38,381 nucleotides of DNA from Rhodospirillales bacterium (lineage in GTDB: Bacteria; Pseudomonadota; Alphaproteobacteria; BOG-932; Roseiterribacteraceae), in NCBI GenBank assembly GCA_003165335.1, contig PLTD01000128.1:1-38381 (forward strand), read 5' to 3'. Positions within the stretch are counted from its first letter, which is position 1, and every line of letters begins with the position of its first letter. Positions 9,675-38,381 of this stretch are shown here, piece by piece. The position numbers and the translations under genes are program-made. The notes beneath the pieces are model-generated. The model searched no databases. It was not told the DNA's origin and saw only the letters and a program-made list of their open reading frames with translations.

Positions 9675-10931
9675 TTGAATCTTTACAACGCCCGTCTGAA
9701 ACATTTTATGGTCGCTCTATGCGTCGGACTATCGGCAGCGGGTTCGCTGTCGTGGGCTCCTACTGCCGACGCCGCCGAAGCCAGAACTGCGGTGACCACG
9801 CCGCCCGGTCGGCCGCAATCCTATCGCATTGCGGGAGCCGATCGCCGGTCGTCGAACTATGACGCCAAGGCCGAGATTCTGGGTTATGCCCAGCTTGTCG
9901 CCGATTCTTATGGCCTTGCTCTTACCGACGGGCAGGCTTTGAAATCGGCGATCGCTGCCTTTCTCGCCAATCCCGCGGACGACACGCTGGCGCGTGCCCG
10001 CGATGCTTGGGTGAATGCCCGCAGAAGTTGGGAATTGACCGAGGCGTACCGATTTTACGACGGTCCCATCGATGTTGCGGATACCGAAGCGGGCCCGTTG
10101 ATGCGCCTGGATGGCTGGCCGATCGACCCGGCTGCAATCGATTATGTCGACGATAATCCGACGGCAGGAATCATCAACAACATGAAACTAGCCCTCACCC
10201 GACCGACGCTGATCGGGCAGGGACAAAGTGGTCACGGGTCTGTTACCGGCTGGCACGCAATAGAATTTCTCCTATGGGGTCAGGAGCCCAACATCGCCGG
10301 CGAACCTGGCGATCGGCCGGTTACCGATTTTCTGCCGAATCAGCCGAACAACGACCGCCGCCGAGCCTACCTGAAACTGTCGGCGGACCTGCTTGTCGAA
10401 GACATGCACTATCTCGTTGAATCCTGGGACCCCAAAAGCCACACCAGCTATGCGGCTGCCTTCCGGCTGCTCAACCAACGCGAAGCCCTGGGCCGCATCA
10501 TGAACGGCATAGCGCAATTGACCGGCCAGGAACTAGCGATCAACCGGCTGGCCGCGGCTCTTGACGGCAAGGATCGGCGGCAGTTGACCTCGCGCTTCAG
10601 CGCGACAAGCTATCAGGATTTCGTTTTCGCGCTGCGCGGGGTCCGAAATGTCTGGACCGGTGATCAAGGAGGCGATACTCGGCCTGGCCTCAGTGTCCTT
10701 ATCGGCCGTGTCGATCCCGCTCTGGCACAGCGCATAAGCCACGCGCTCGATCATGCGGAAGAATCCATCGCCCTGCTACAAACCCCGCTAGAGCGCGAAA
10801 CATTACCCGCTCCGTCCAGCTCCGCGGCGCGCCAGGATGCCGAACGCGCGATCGCAGACCTTAAGCGCTTTGCCAGCCTCATCCGAGACGCCGGAACGAA
10901 AATGGGCGTCGCAGTCTATCTACCGAACTAG
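9675..10931 (+). CDS. imelysin-family (peptidase M75-like) exported protein
   Basis: An exported protein of about 418 residues. The family hallmark GxHxxE appears as TGWHAIEFLLWGQ in the first half. The N-terminal YAQLVADSYG helix and the helical repeats also fit imelysins. Members bind iron or haem-related ligands in the periplasm or outer membrane; proteolysis is doubtful. The start is uncertain. A TTG at 9675 gives NLYNARLKHF followed by a hydrophobic core ending ADA-AEA, a complete signal peptide. The ATG at 9708 lacks the basic n-region, and an ATG at 9606 adds residues with no signal-like character. The stop codon shares the palindrome CTAG with that of the convergent GNAT gene. Confidence 0.85.
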   Translation: MNLYNARLKHFMVALCVGLSAAGSLSWAPTADAAEARTAVTTPPGRPQSYRIAGADRRSSNYDAKAEILGYAQLVADSYGLALTDGQALKSAIAAFLANPADDTLARARDAWVNARRSWELTEAYRFYDGPIDVADTEAGPLMRLDGWPIDPAAIDYVDDNPTAGIINNMKLALTRPTLIGQGQSGHGSVTGWHAIEFLLWGQEPNIAGEPGDRPVTDFLPNQPNNDRRRAYLKLSADLLVEDMHYLVESWDPKSHTSYAAAFRLLNQREALGRIMNGIAQLTGQELAINRLAAALDGKDRRQLTSRFSATSYQDFVFALRGVRNVWTGDQGGDTRPGLSVLIGRVDPALAQRISHALDHAEESIALLQTPLERETLPAPSSSAARQDAERAIADLKRFASLIRDAGTKMGVAVYLPN

Positions 10932-28101: not shown

Positions 28102-28305
28102 CTATGGGCTGGTCGAATTCATCTGCCGTTCGACTGTCGTCGTCTGTTGCTGCGGCATGGCCGGCGCGGTCGTCTCGGTCGTGACACTGCGCGTCGTAGT
28201 CGTCGTAACCGGGGGCGGAGCTTCGCTACAAGCGGCGATAACGCAAATGCATAATGACAGGGCTGAAAAAGCGGCGAAGCGCGCGGAGTTCTTGGGCGTG
28301 ACCAT
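28102..28305 (-). CDS. small threonine-rich lipoprotein
   Basis: A 67-residue protein with a lipoprotein signal: Lys/Arg at the start, hydrophobic FAAFSALSLCICVIAAC with a lipobox (IAAC, lipid on the last Cys), then a short unstructured tail of Thr, Pro, Val and Gln. GAAAGG lies eight bases before the chosen ATG; an ATG eight codons upstream is less likely. The tail includes TTTVER, also present in the secreted protein at 37046. No family recognised. It is convergent with the serine protease and divergent from the HtrA gene; an anchored envelope role is likely. Confidence 0.68.
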   Translation of the reverse strand: MVTPKNSARFAAFSALSLCICVIAACSEAPPPVTTTTTRSVTTETTAPAMPQQQTTTVERQMNSTSP

Positions 28306-34846: not shown

Positions 34847-35206
34847 ATGAGCAAGACCGAGCACAACGAGACCATCTATATTCTGGACCAGGTTACGCCC
34901 AAGCCCGGCCAGGCCCAGGCGTTTCTGGCAGCCTATATGGAACGCTACGCTCCCGCTGCGCGCGAACGCGGCATGACGCTGATCAACCGCCTAGTGTCGC
35001 CGCCGATGTGGCTGAAGGAGCAATCCAATATGCTACAGATCACCTGGAGCGTCCAAGGTGCCGGAGCCTGGTGGGCAATGAGCCATCAAGGACGCCGCAA
35101 CCCCGCCACGAGAGAGTTCTGGGAAAGCGTCGAGCCGATGATCGTAAAACGCCACCGCAGTTTCCTGAGCGACGTCGCCGACGTGGAGAGCATCTGCAAT
35201 GTTTAA
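34847..35206 (+). CDS. small alpha+beta-barrel-like protein (NIPSNAP/Dabb-like)
   Basis: A 119-residue cytosolic protein. The layout IYILDQVTPKPGQAQAFLAAYMERYAPAARERGMTL followed by NMLQITWSVQGAGAWWAMSH, then a C-terminal helix, is that of ferredoxin-like alpha+beta-barrel domains (NIPSNAP, Dabb, EthD). I cannot name the exact family. Such proteins often bind or process hydrophobic intermediates in degradation or polyketide pathways. It begins two bases after the SDR stop codon with GGAGG seven bases upstream, and its end overlaps the next gene by eight bases, so it is tightly coupled in the operon. Confidence 0.75.
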   Translation: MSKTEHNETIYILDQVTPKPGQAQAFLAAYMERYAPAARERGMTLINRLVSPPMWLKEQSNMLQITWSVQGAGAWWAMSHQGRRNPATREFWESVEPMIVKRHRSFLSDVADVESICNV

Positions 35207-35870
35207 GCTGACTAAACTGATCACCCTGGCGCCCCAGGTGGACGACGCCGGCCGTGCGAAACTGGAATCGACTCTGAAAGCCGCGGGCAAGGTCGGCGGT
35301 CCGGTAGTCCGCTCAATGCTCGAACCCACATTGCCAGGCGTCTATAACGGAGGCGACTTTATTTGGCACGTCCAGTTTGCCGACGAAGCGGCCTATGGCA
35401 AGTGGAGGACCGATGCCGGCAAGACCGCCGATACGGTGCTGAAAGACAGGGCGCTGGTGTCCAATATCGACAGCGTCGCCTATGAGGGCGGTCCCAGCGG
35501 ATCGAAGCCGGGTAACCTTAACAAAGGCGCTTATCGCGTAGCCCTGTTCAGCGTATTCAAAGAGCCCTTCCCCGGTGCCGTCGCCCAGTATGATGCTGAA
35601 ACTTATGAGATGGGCACCTACATCAACAGCATCAAAAACTGGCAGGTCAGCCATGTGAAGGAATCCAGCGGCGCGCGCCCCTGGACTCATGTGTGGGAGC
35701 AGGAATATGAGGACATATCAGGCCTGCACGGCGCCTATATGATGCACCCGCACCACTGGGGCTTCATCGACCGCTGGTACGACCCCGAATGCACCGATTG
35801 GATGATCGACAATCACCTCTGCCATACATTCTGCAACTTCGACGGCAGTGTGATTGCGCCCAAGGTGTAG
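35199..35870 (+). CDS. two-domain Dabb-like (stress-responsive alpha/beta-barrel) protein
   Basis: A 223-residue protein of two ferredoxin-like halves. The first (about 1-95) has FIWHVQFADEAAYGKW. The second (about 108-215) is closer to Dabb: RVALFSVFKEPFP, then WTHVWEQEYEDISGLHGAYMMHPHHWGFID, where the HPxHW-type segment matches the domain's HP[AEW]H motif. Dabb proteins include plant olivetolic acid cyclase and bacterial catabolic partners, so a cyclase, isomerase or lyase role is possible. It is the last gene of the MDR-SDR operon. No terminator follows directly. Confidence 0.78.
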   Translation: MFKLTKLITLAPQVDDAGRAKLESTLKAAGKVGGPVVRSMLEPTLPGVYNGGDFIWHVQFADEAAYGKWRTDAGKTADTVLKDRALVSNIDSVAYEGGPSGSKPGNLNKGAYRVALFSVFKEPFPGAVAQYDAETYEMGTYINSIKNWQVSHVKESSGARPWTHVWEQEYEDISGLHGAYMMHPHHWGFIDRWYDPECTDWMIDNHLCHTFCNFDGSVIAPKV

Positions 35871-35996: not shown

Positions 35997-36452
35997 TCAC
36001 GGCCGGCCGCATATCTCGTTCGGGCCTTCAGTTAGGAAGATCGAGTAGAAGCGTTCTTTCACGCGCCAGCCCTGGGCAGTTCGGGCCCAGAAATCGTGAT
36101 ATTCGCCCCACATAGAATAGATCTGTCCCTCAAATGCGTTTAGGCCCTTATGGACCGCATAATAATGAGCGCGGCTTTCGGCTATGTCGCCGGACACAGT
36201 TACACGGAAATTCAGTACATTATGATGCGTAGCACCACAGTTTGACCCGGTGCCAAGATTATTGTGCATCGATTTGATCAGCGGCTCGACGCCGTTCACG
36301 ACATTCTTATAAGCGGTGCTGTAATCACCGACCGCGTCATGGGTGAAAACCCCGGTCATCGCGTCGAACTGCTTTTGATCGACCAGGTCGCAATAAAGGT
36401 TATAGACCTGCTCGATCTCGTGCTTGTCCTTAGCGTATTGCAGGAAATCCAT
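35997..36452 (-). CDS. SnoaL-like / NTF2-fold protein
   Basis: A 151-residue protein of the cystatin-NTF2 fold. The opening YAKDKHEIEQVYNLYCDLVDQKQFDAMTGVFTHDAV is typical of SnoaL-like proteins. It continues with TGSNCGATHHNVLNFRVTVSGDIAESRAHYYAVH and ends WRVKERFYSIF. Members include ketosteroid-isomerase-like enzymes, dehydratases, polyketide cyclases and ring-hydroxylating dioxygenase small subunits. A His-His pair in the core may be catalytic. I start at MDFLQYA, as the 46 codons upstream overlap the EcfG promoter region and are not family-like. It converges on the alpha+beta-barrel operon and probably belongs to the same pathway. Confidence 0.82.
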   Translation of the reverse strand: MDFLQYAKDKHEIEQVYNLYCDLVDQKQFDAMTGVFTHDAVGDYSTAYKNVVNGVEPLIKSMHNNLGTGSNCGATHHNVLNFRVTVSGDIAESRAHYYAVHKGLNAFEGQIYSMWGEYHDFWARTAQGWRVKERFYSIFLTEGPNEICGRP

Positions 36453-36537
36453 TCGTCTTGTCCCCAGGTCAGCATCTTTATCTATAGGCCAGAAATAGCC
36501 CCCGCAGGTGCAACGCGCCATCATCCAGATTAAGGCA

Positions 36538-36562
36538 GGAACATCCGTCGCTGCTGCTCGTT
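36538..36562 (+). promoter_or_regulatory. EcfG-type general stress promoter
   Basis: GGAAC, 16 bases, then CGTT: a perfect match to the alphaproteobacterial EcfG sigma-factor consensus. The -10 box ends 52 bases before the start of the first small secreted paralog. Confidence 0.85.
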
Positions 36563-36614
36563 TAATGAGCGATGTCCGAGCGGCGGACATCGAAATTCGA
36601 TGGAGGCGACGATT

Positions 36615-36941
36615 ATGCGAAGCCTATTTTTGGGCGCGATCACGCTCGCGCTCATTGCTGGTGCGGCCATAGCAGAAGAGGCTTACCAAGGCGTAACAAG
36701 CCAGCCAGCCAAAGCGTCTCCGGCTTACAAACTGCCTCCCAAAGGTACAATGGATTTCGCTCAGCGGACAGTCGATCCTGCCATTTTCGACCCCTCGCGC
36801 CCACTCCCCTATCGCGCGGAAGTCAGCAAATCCGCAGATATTCAATCGATCGGGAAACCCGCGGGAAACGACCGCGCGATCGCACTTAAGCGTGCAGTCA
36901 GTGATTCCCGGGAGGCTGTGAAAGTCAGCCCCGGAAATTAG
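36615..36941 (+). CDS. small secreted protein, stress-regulated paralog 1
   Basis: A 108-residue protein with a signal peptide (MRSLFLGAITLALIAGAAIA, cleavage AIA-EE). The mature part is polar (LPPKGTMDFAQRTVDPAIFD, SRPLPYRAEV) with no recognised domain, and ends VKVSPGN. GGAGG lies eight bases before the ATG; the frame extends five codons upstream to a less suitable ATG. An EcfG promoter lies upstream, so it should be induced by general stress. Its signal peptide and first mature residues (EEAYQG) closely resemble those of the next gene (QQAYDS), indicating duplication followed by divergence of the mature part. Confidence 0.78.
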   Translation: MRSLFLGAITLALIAGAAIAEEAYQGVTSQPAKASPAYKLPPKGTMDFAQRTVDPAIFDPSRPLPYRAEVSKSADIQSIGKPAGNDRAIALKRAVSDSREAVKVSPGN

Positions 36942-36969
36942 CCGCAGAAAGCGACGCATCTCTCAATCG

Positions 36970-36995
36970 GGAACATCCGCGACAGACCCACCGTT
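36970..36995 (+). promoter_or_regulatory. EcfG-type general stress promoter
   Basis: GGAAC, 17 bases, then CGTT, with the -10 box ending 50 bases before the start of the second small secreted paralog. The first five spacer bases (ATCCG) are identical to those in the promoter at 36538. Confidence 0.87.
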
Positions 36996-37045
36996 TATCG
37001 AGACACGTCCCCACACTGGGACATAAAAATTCGACGGAGCAAAAA

Positions 37046-37384
37046 ATGATGAAGAGTATATTCGCCGGTGCAACCGCTATCGCGCTCATCGCGAGCGCAG
37101 CTGTCGCACAACAGGCATACGATAGCACGACCAGCCGTACCACCACGGTTACCGCGCCGACGCAGATAATACCGCCCGTACCGGCCGAAACCAGCACGAC
37201 CACGGTCGAACGATCCTACGCGCCAGTGCCGGTCGCCCCACCCCCGACCTCGACATATCACGAGGAACATGTGACGACGCAGAACGGCCAGACAGTTGAA
37301 AAGACGATGAAAAGCGAGACGGCCACGCCCTATGGCAACCGATCCAGCACATATAGCCAAACCACGACCAACGGCAACCAATAA
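37046..37384 (+). CDS. small secreted Thr/Pro-rich protein, stress-regulated paralog 2
   Basis: A 112-residue protein with signal peptide (MMKSIFAGATAIALIASAAVA, cleavage AVA-QQ). The low-complexity mature part is rich in Thr, Ser, Pro and Val (TTSRTTTVTAP, STTTVERSY, VAPPPTSTYHEEHV) and ends with NRSSTYSQTTTNGNQ. GGAG lies eight bases before the ATG. It has its own EcfG promoter and a strong terminator, so it is a single-gene stress transcript. It is probably an intrinsically disordered periplasmic or surface protein. The TTTVER element also occurs in the lipoprotein at 28102. No family recognised. Confidence 0.8.
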   Translation: MMKSIFAGATAIALIASAAVAQQAYDSTTSRTTTVTAPTQIIPPVPAETSTTTVERSYAPVPVAPPPTSTYHEEHVTTQNGQTVEKTMKSETATPYGNRSSTYSQTTTNGNQ

Positions 37385-37410: not shown

Positions 37411-37441
37411 AATCCCGCCGGGCCATCCCGGCGGGATTTTT
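37411..37441 (+). terminator. rho-independent terminator
   Basis: AATCCCGCCGGG pairs with CCCGGCGGGATT across a four-base loop (CCAT) and is followed by TTT. It is 27 bases after the stop of the second stress paralog. Confidence 0.92.
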
Positions 37442-37524: not shown

Positions 37525-37942
37525 ATGGGTGCTTGGTCGAATCTAATGCAACGCCTGCGCGCCGTCGGGAGATCGATGATACGATCCGAAGGCCACTTGG
37601 AAGCGATCTCCCGCTCTGAAGAACATCTGGTACGTCTCGCCGCCGCAGCCGAAGAAGGTTGACGGCAGCTCGCTCTCATTGCCGGTATGATGGCGCGGCG
37701 CGAAATGCTGCAGGTTCATGTCCGACCCTCGCTTTGACGATCCGCTTCGGCTGGAGCGAAGCGGATTCAAGGTTCACTCGCAATATGATGAAGACGGCAT
37801 TATCGCCGAGATATTCCGCCGGATCGGGACAACGAACCGCATTTGTGTGGAGTTCGGCGCCGGTAACGGCTCGGAGAACTGGACCGGATTTCTGGTCATG
37901 CAGGGATGGCGTGGCCTTTGGATCGACGGCAGCGACTCGTTT
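37525..37942 (+). pseudogene. decayed FkbM-type methyltransferase gene, 5' part
   Basis: The second segment (from 37718) reads RSGFKVHSQYDEDGIIAEIF and then RICVEFGAGNGSEN ... GWRGLWIDGSDSF. This is the start of a FkbM-like SAM-methyltransferase with motif I EFGAGNG. Upstream, after GAGG and an ATG at 37525, 45 codons read MGAWSNLMQRLRAVGRSM ... RLAAAAEEG and stop at TGA (37660). The same frame then continues as RQLALIAGMMARREMLQVHV to about 37715, where the sense shifts by one frame into DPRFDDPLRLERSG. So one nonsense codon and one frameshift appear to split an N-terminal helical region from the catalytic domain. An IS110-family element then interrupts it after SDSF. Alternatively the 45-codon frame is a separate small gene and the methyltransferase starts at 37718. 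Confidence 0.65.
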
Positions 37943-38381
37943 CTCTTTTATATAAATGTGATGGGGTGGACGCCCCCCGACGGCATCGATGTGCCAAAGT
38001 GAGGTTGTCGAGCAACACTTCAAGGAGAGGCGTCCATGGTACAGGCTAGCACAATTGGAATGGATATCGCGAAACAAGTCTTCCAGATTCATGGCGCGGA
38101 TGAGACCGGCGCTGTGGTTTTGCGTAAGAAACTGGGCCGGGCGAAGGTGCTGACGTTTTTCGCATCTCAGCCGCCGTGCGTGGTGGCGATGGAGGCTTGC
38201 GGTGGTTCGCATTACTGGGCGCGGGAGATCGCTAAGCTGGGTCACGAGGTGAAGCTGATCGCACCGAAGTACGTCAAGCCGTTTGTGAAGCGACAGAAGA
38301 ACGACATGGCCGACGCCGAAGCGATTTGCGAGGCGGCGCAGCGGCCGACGATGCGGTTTGTGGCGGTTAAGAGCGAAGCGG
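37943..38381 (+). mobile_element. IS110-family insertion sequence, left part
   Basis: The methyltransferase frame loses its family resemblance near 37942, and an IS110-family transposase starts 93 bases later. The left end therefore lies somewhere around 37943-37965; I cannot fix the exact base because IS110 elements lack clear terminal inverted repeats and target duplications. A short hairpin (GGGG-TGGACG-CCCC) lies in the leader. The element continues beyond the window. The short 5' leader suggests the IS1111-like layout, with the longer noncoding end, where a guide (bridge/seek) RNA would be encoded, on the far side. Confidence 0.75.
38036..38381 (+). CDS. IS110-family transposase (DEDD recombinase), partial
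   Basis: The first 115 codons of the transposase; the gene runs off the right edge. The N-terminal RuvC-like DEDD domain is recognisable: GMDIAKQVFQIHG with the first catalytic Asp at residue 9, VVAMEACGGSHYWARE with the Glu, KLIAPKYVKPFVKRQKNDMADAEAI with the further acidic residues. AAGGAGA lies seven bases before the ATG. Family members insert DNA by a recombinase mechanism guided by a structured RNA from the element's end. GC content and codon use are not obviously different from the surroundings. Confidence 0.93.
   Translation, partial: MVQASTIGMDIAKQVFQIHGADETGAVVLRKKLGRAKVLTFFASQPPCVVAMEACGGSHYWAREIAKLGHEVKLIAPKYVKPFVKRQKNDMADAEAICEAAQRPTMRFVAVKSEA

Follow-up and report, generated by a model that had tools for sequence, protein, structure and literature searches.

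The window, the whole 38,381-nucleotide stretch of Rhodospirillales bacterium DNA analysed here, carries at 36538-37384 two co-directional genes with mature products of about 90 residues each, and it appears rather likely that these are old tandem duplicates, driven by EcfG and encoding Sec-exported, hydrophilic envelope proteins that protect against stress. The promoters and their conservation, the signal peptides, the homology of the copies, the purifying selection on copy 2 and the family-wide link to the promoter are read from the DNA, and from this we infer induction by EcfG, the role of a leader stem-loop, the location of the proteins and their protective function. The locus is laid out as follows:

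35997..36453, - strand: divergent neighbour, SnoaL_4-like, its start placed via the ortholog (MDFLQYAKDKHE...) in G002
36538..36562, + strand: EcfG-type promoter P1, GGAAC (36538-36542), N16, CGTT (36559-36562)
36570..36592, + strand: copy 1 leader stem-loop, 9 bp stem and 5-nt loop just past the expected transcription start, z about -1.6 to -1.9
36615..36941, + strand: copy 1 gene (protein P0001), 108 aa, secreted, continuing EEAYQGVTSQ... after the signal peptide
36970..36995, + strand: EcfG-type promoter P2, GGAAC (36970-36974), N17, CGTT (36992-36995)
37007..37022, + strand: copy 2 leader stem-loop, GTCCC/GGGAC, in the same position as that of copy 1
37046..37384, + strand: copy 2 gene (protein P0002), 112 aa, secreted, Thr/Ser/Pro-rich, continuing QQAYDSTTSR... 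after the signal peptide
37411..37438, + strand: terminator-like palindrome AATCCCGCCGGG-CCAT-CCCGGCGGGATT followed by TTTTCG, 3′ of copy 2

Organization of the Locus

The Shine-Dalgarno (SD) sequence of copy 1 is GGAGG with the ATG 8 bases downstream, and an additional in-frame ATG at 36600 is the less likely start since it overlaps this SD. A search for a forward terminator between copy 1 and copy 2 found none, such that transcription from P1 may extend into copy 2. The counterpart locus in G002, a sister species (MAG Rhodospirillales bacterium RYN_452), holds one gene beside a SnoaL-like gene; the SnoaL_4-like gene is a synteny anchor lying outside the two-gene system. Two genes upstream of the pair, at window 35199-35870 (+), is a gene for a Dabb (stress responsive A/B barrel) domain protein, which was not found beside the G002 counterpart. 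Downstream, a reading frame of 94 aa (FGAGNGSENWTG...) at window 37718-38380 (+) appears truncated, and directly after it comes an IS110-type transposase (PF01548) at the end of the contig.

Promoters and the General Stress Response Core

P1 and P2 both read GGAACATCCG, and the earlier note's description of two perfect promoters was confirmed, with spacings of 16 and 17, 52 bases from P1 to the ATG at 36615, 50 bases from P2 to that at 37046, and a common ATCCG. These two are the only exact matches to GGAAC-N16/17-CGTT in the whole window, where 0.69 would be expected by chance. Genome-wide the exact motif is not enriched, with 59 CGTT matches compared with 121 for a reversed control pattern, and the GGTT version with 78 matches is likewise below the reversed control, so that the motif by itself is not taken as proof. 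The weight of the promoter evidence lies in position and conservation and not in the rarity of the motif: GGAAC-N16/17-[CG]GTT within 120 upstream bases occurs in 0.1% of dinucleotide shuffles for each gene, and at the place of P1 G002 carries GGAAC-N16-GGTT, the -10 being GGTT and not CGTT. A lack of conserved boxes had been named in advance as one result that would count against EcfG; they are kept in G002, in paralogs and in distant homologs.

The genome encodes PhyR (NF006623, 322 bits against a cut-off of 240) and a NepR above cut-off with an EcfG-type ECF sigma factor gene adjacent, with a further NepR-like gene at C109, and EcfG control is therefore to be expected. In the known pathway, stress activates PhyR, and EcfG is then freed from NepR. 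With these core genes, the conserved boxes and the recurrence of the motif in paralogs and distant homologs, the proposal that EcfG drives both genes is well supported as a prediction from sequence.

Among the loci surveyed elsewhere in the genome, GGAAC-N16/17-[CG]GTT precedes a Ku-like gene (a label given to the sequence by eye), a porin-like gene and several genes for lipoproteins or small secreted proteins; Ku belongs to the EcfG targets reported for S. melonis (PMC6599016). Within the window, a 67-aa Thr-rich lipoprotein (CSEAPPPVTTTTTRSVTTETT...) is encoded at 28102-28305 (-) behind a GGAAC-N17-GGTT of its own (28368-28343), with a small hairpin in the leader. A 109-aa secreted protein, giving no Pfam or NCBIfam match, lies behind a perfect GGAAC-N17-CGTT at L022 1501-1894 (G000:C85). 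At L095 (G000:C109), close to the additional NepR-like gene, a secreted protein of 92 aa at 9894-10172 (-) is found behind GGAAC-N16-GGTT, and a GGAAC-N17-CGTT near 9693 (-) stands before a 367-aa porin-like protein, which suggests a second cluster tied to the general stress response.

Homology of the Two Copies

Most of the earlier note's reading stands, with two corrections. The signal peptides of the two copies had been called near-identical, which is overstated as 12 of 20 residues agree; the similarity of the leaders holds, with 47 of 74 aligned bases identical. The claim that the mature parts have diverged completely proved wrong. Over the whole protein copy 1 and copy 2 are 24% identical, the homology runs beyond the cleavage site (AYxxxTS), and the G002 protein P0003 bridges both, having (T)(V/I)xPxxFDPSR...Y..E in common with copy 1 and matching copy 2 in the Thr-rich remainder. 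In keeping with this, the mature part of copy 1 scores 12.9 bits against a profile of copy 2 and P0003, the best of 1000 shuffles reaching 12.3.

Identity to P0003 is 68% for copy 2 and 35% for copy 1. Compared with G002, copy 2 has a dN of 0.23 and a dS of 1.13 (dN/dS 0.20) and is under purifying selection; the dS of the SnoaL neighbour is 1.12, and this agreement indicates that copy 2 and P0003 are orthologs. Copy 1 is faster-evolving, with a dN of 0.68 and a dS of 2.2 that is saturated. G002 retains the gene, its place, GGAACATC, GTTTA, the stem-loop and the SD. A duplication after the split from G002 was considered and is tentatively disfavoured. Third positions differ by 0.61-0.68 between copy 1 and the others compared with 0.48 between the orthologs, so that copy 1 looks more diverged at silent sites; this would favour a duplication before the split, with one copy then lost in G002. 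Within the first 30 codons, however, third-position counts of 16, 18 and 18 do not tell the two orders of events apart, and the leader nearest to that of G002 is the leader of copy 1.

The Leader Stem-Loop

A stem-loop occupies the same place, downstream of the -10 box and ahead of the SD, in copy 1, copy 2 and G002. The stem reads ATGTCCG...CGGACAT in copy 1 and G002 and GTCCC...GGGAC in copy 2, in which the top pair differs on both sides (G-C to C-G). Folding of the three leaders relative to shuffles is moderate (z -1.2 to -3.0). The hairpin was also considered as a family-wide trait, for which there was no support beyond the window pair and G002, the wider family giving a Stouffer value of -1.7 without this trio. 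The stem-loop could serve in protection of the 5′ end or as the target of a regulatory RNA, the latter by analogy with sigma-T-dependent GsrN, which acts on the katG leader in Caulobacter (PMC5869019).

A Wider Family of Secreted Thr-Rich Proteins

The earlier note had overlooked both the leader stem-loop and additional paralogs in the genome that carry this promoter. Profile searches returned exported Thr-rich candidate paralogs at C45, C186 and C191 in this genome; in another order of the class, 20 of the 43 genomes searched, representing 10 of 12 genera, have Thr-rich family members. GGAAC-N16/17-NGTT is present in 22 of 35 sampled upstream regions, compared with 0.17 expected from shuffles; the 35 are a loose sample, since the signal peptide also drew in some DUF1236-like, Gly-rich or otherwise dissimilar secreted proteins, and the enrichment thus describes the whole class to which these small secreted proteins belong. 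Among the 13 upstream regions that do not carry the motif at least four (L136, L141, L154, L159) are preceded immediately by the end of another family gene, a tandem position judged by reading. The region upstream of C191 has no EcfG motif and, by eye, a TATAAT-like box. Tandem neighbours of the family less than 50 bases apart are found in other genera (G399:C392, G400:C421, and G414:C25), with a promoter before the first gene and none before the second in G414. A Thr-rich lipoprotein similar to that at window 28102-28305 lies directly downstream of the G063 family gene (L098 from about 1959).

With signal peptides removed, C45, C186, C191, G063, and G278 each beat all shuffles against a profile of the other members. 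Against the five-member family profile, the score of the mature part was reached by 0 of 1000 shuffles for P0003, 325 of 1000 for copy 2 and 705 of 1000 for copy 1, so that the family link of the window pair rests mainly on P0003; the full-length family matches are strong, but they extend over the signal peptide, and sequences from the query alignment are among the matched proteins. The pair may be placed on the fringe of this group of small, secreted and Thr-rich proteins, a family without a name. Pfam and NCBIfam gave no family over its curated cut-off for the window proteins or the Thr-rich family, and MTB12, GltG and Mito_fiss_reg were rejected as the family with scores far under their cut-offs.

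Properties of the Proteins and a Proposed Mechanism

The mature proteins are hydrophilic (GRAVY -0.64 for copy 1 and -0.95 for copy 2) and have no Cys or Trp, the Thr content of copy 1 having fallen to 3%. An alternating T/S-x pattern and TTT tails are repeated across the Thr-rich family. In the AlphaFold model of copy 2 the C-terminal half contains four strands with turn-like DG/PxG motifs between them, and the copy 1 model contains no strands; the models are poor with mean pLDDT of 54 for copy 2 and 49 for copy 1, and consequently no fold is established for either copy. Solved structures gave no match.

The favoured explanation would begin with a single gene, encoding a small hydrophilic protein exported by Sec, which was duplicated in tandem long ago. 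Under stress PhyR would release EcfG from NepR and each copy would be transcribed from its own EcfG promoter, with the short 5′ stem-loop perhaps stabilising the message or tuning translation. The mature proteins would build up in the periplasm or on the cell surface and protect the envelope, copy 2 as a Thr-rich chain that possibly forms beta-hairpins and copy 1 as a more charged, basic and faster-evolving form. The signal peptides make the envelope-effector reading plausible, and the pair probably acts as non-enzymatic envelope proteins, for which a protective periplasmic filler or a beta-rich coat may be the biochemical role.

Alternative Explanations

Copy 2 might be the functional gene and copy 1 a relic keeping its promoter, leader and signal peptide while the mature part drifts to loss. 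The lower identity of copy 1 to P0003, the single gene at this place in the sister species and the low Thr content are all in keeping with such decay, which nonetheless appears unlikely, as the frame, SD, signal peptide and promoter of copy 1 are all intact, its saturated dS relative to G002 exceeds its dN and the FDPSR and Y..E positions are conserved. It is also conceivable, with a rather low probability, that under stress the mature chains form extracellular beta-rich fibres or an adhesive coat and not soluble periplasmic protectants. The four modelled strands of copy 2 with their turn-like separators, together with the alternating T/S-x and TTT tails across the family, would suit such an assembly, against which are set the low confidence of the copy 2 model, the lack of strands in the model of copy 1, the lack of a match among solved structures and the absence of secretion genes beside the pair.

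A more basic objection is that P1 and P2 are chance or inherited sequence and that another sigma factor reads the genes. The motif is short and not enriched genome-wide, and the paralog at C191 has the TATAAT-like box in place of the motif. Against this, the motif recurs in the family upstream regions far above the shuffle expectation, the boxes are conserved in G002 and no sigma-70-like replacement for P1 or P2 is found upstream of either gene, the one weak match lying within copy 1 (36724-36751), which together make the objection very improbable.

Significance and Comparison With Known Systems

About 40% of the EcfG-dependent genes of S. melonis have no assigned function (PMC6599016), and in the measured EcfG regulon of strain S. 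melonis Fr1 (Table 1, PMC6599016) genes for small exported proteins of unassigned function are among the most strongly EcfG-dependent. The pair resembles the targets of this EcfG (SigT/RpoE2-type) regulon in having GGAAC-N-[CG]GTT less than 100 bases from the start and in being small and exported (PMC6599016); no sequence family was found assigned in Table 1 to proteins of this kind, whereas the predicted target in the window consists of two tandem genes from a Thr-rich family that recurs, known here from sequence. Small secreted unknowns as EcfG targets are thus already known from S. melonis, and what is new is the family context, undescribed in the libraries searched. One class of EcfG targets of unassigned function gains a signature of signal peptide, Thr-rich mature part and EcfG promoter, and as this can be traced across genomes deletion and localisation work in a culturable relative is directly possible. 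More tentatively, this unnamed, fast-diverging and repeatedly tandem-duplicated exported family might be one of the outputs that recur in the general stress response of alphaproteobacteria, and might form a stress-induced envelope coat or filler.

Hydrophilins are defined by a Gly content over 6% together with high hydrophilicity. The window proteins are like them in being small, hydrophilic, stress-linked and free of Cys and Trp, but do not fit the definition, as Gly makes up 3% of copy 2 and about 6% of copy 1. P0003 and P0005 weakly match the MTB12 family secreted protein (NF053528) over the signal peptide and the Thr/Pro stretch, at 24-28 bits against a cut-off of 125, and are thus not members. 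The DUF1236 (PF06823)/PRC-barrel secreted proteins of alphaproteobacteria resemble the window proteins in their signal peptides and Thr-rich N-termini, but no DUF1236 or PRC domain is present in the window proteins. In other alphaproteobacteria, the DUF1236-like or PRC-barrel-like secreted genes L124, L161, L153, L111, and L123 carry GGAAC-N16/17-NGTT 56-99 bases upstream.
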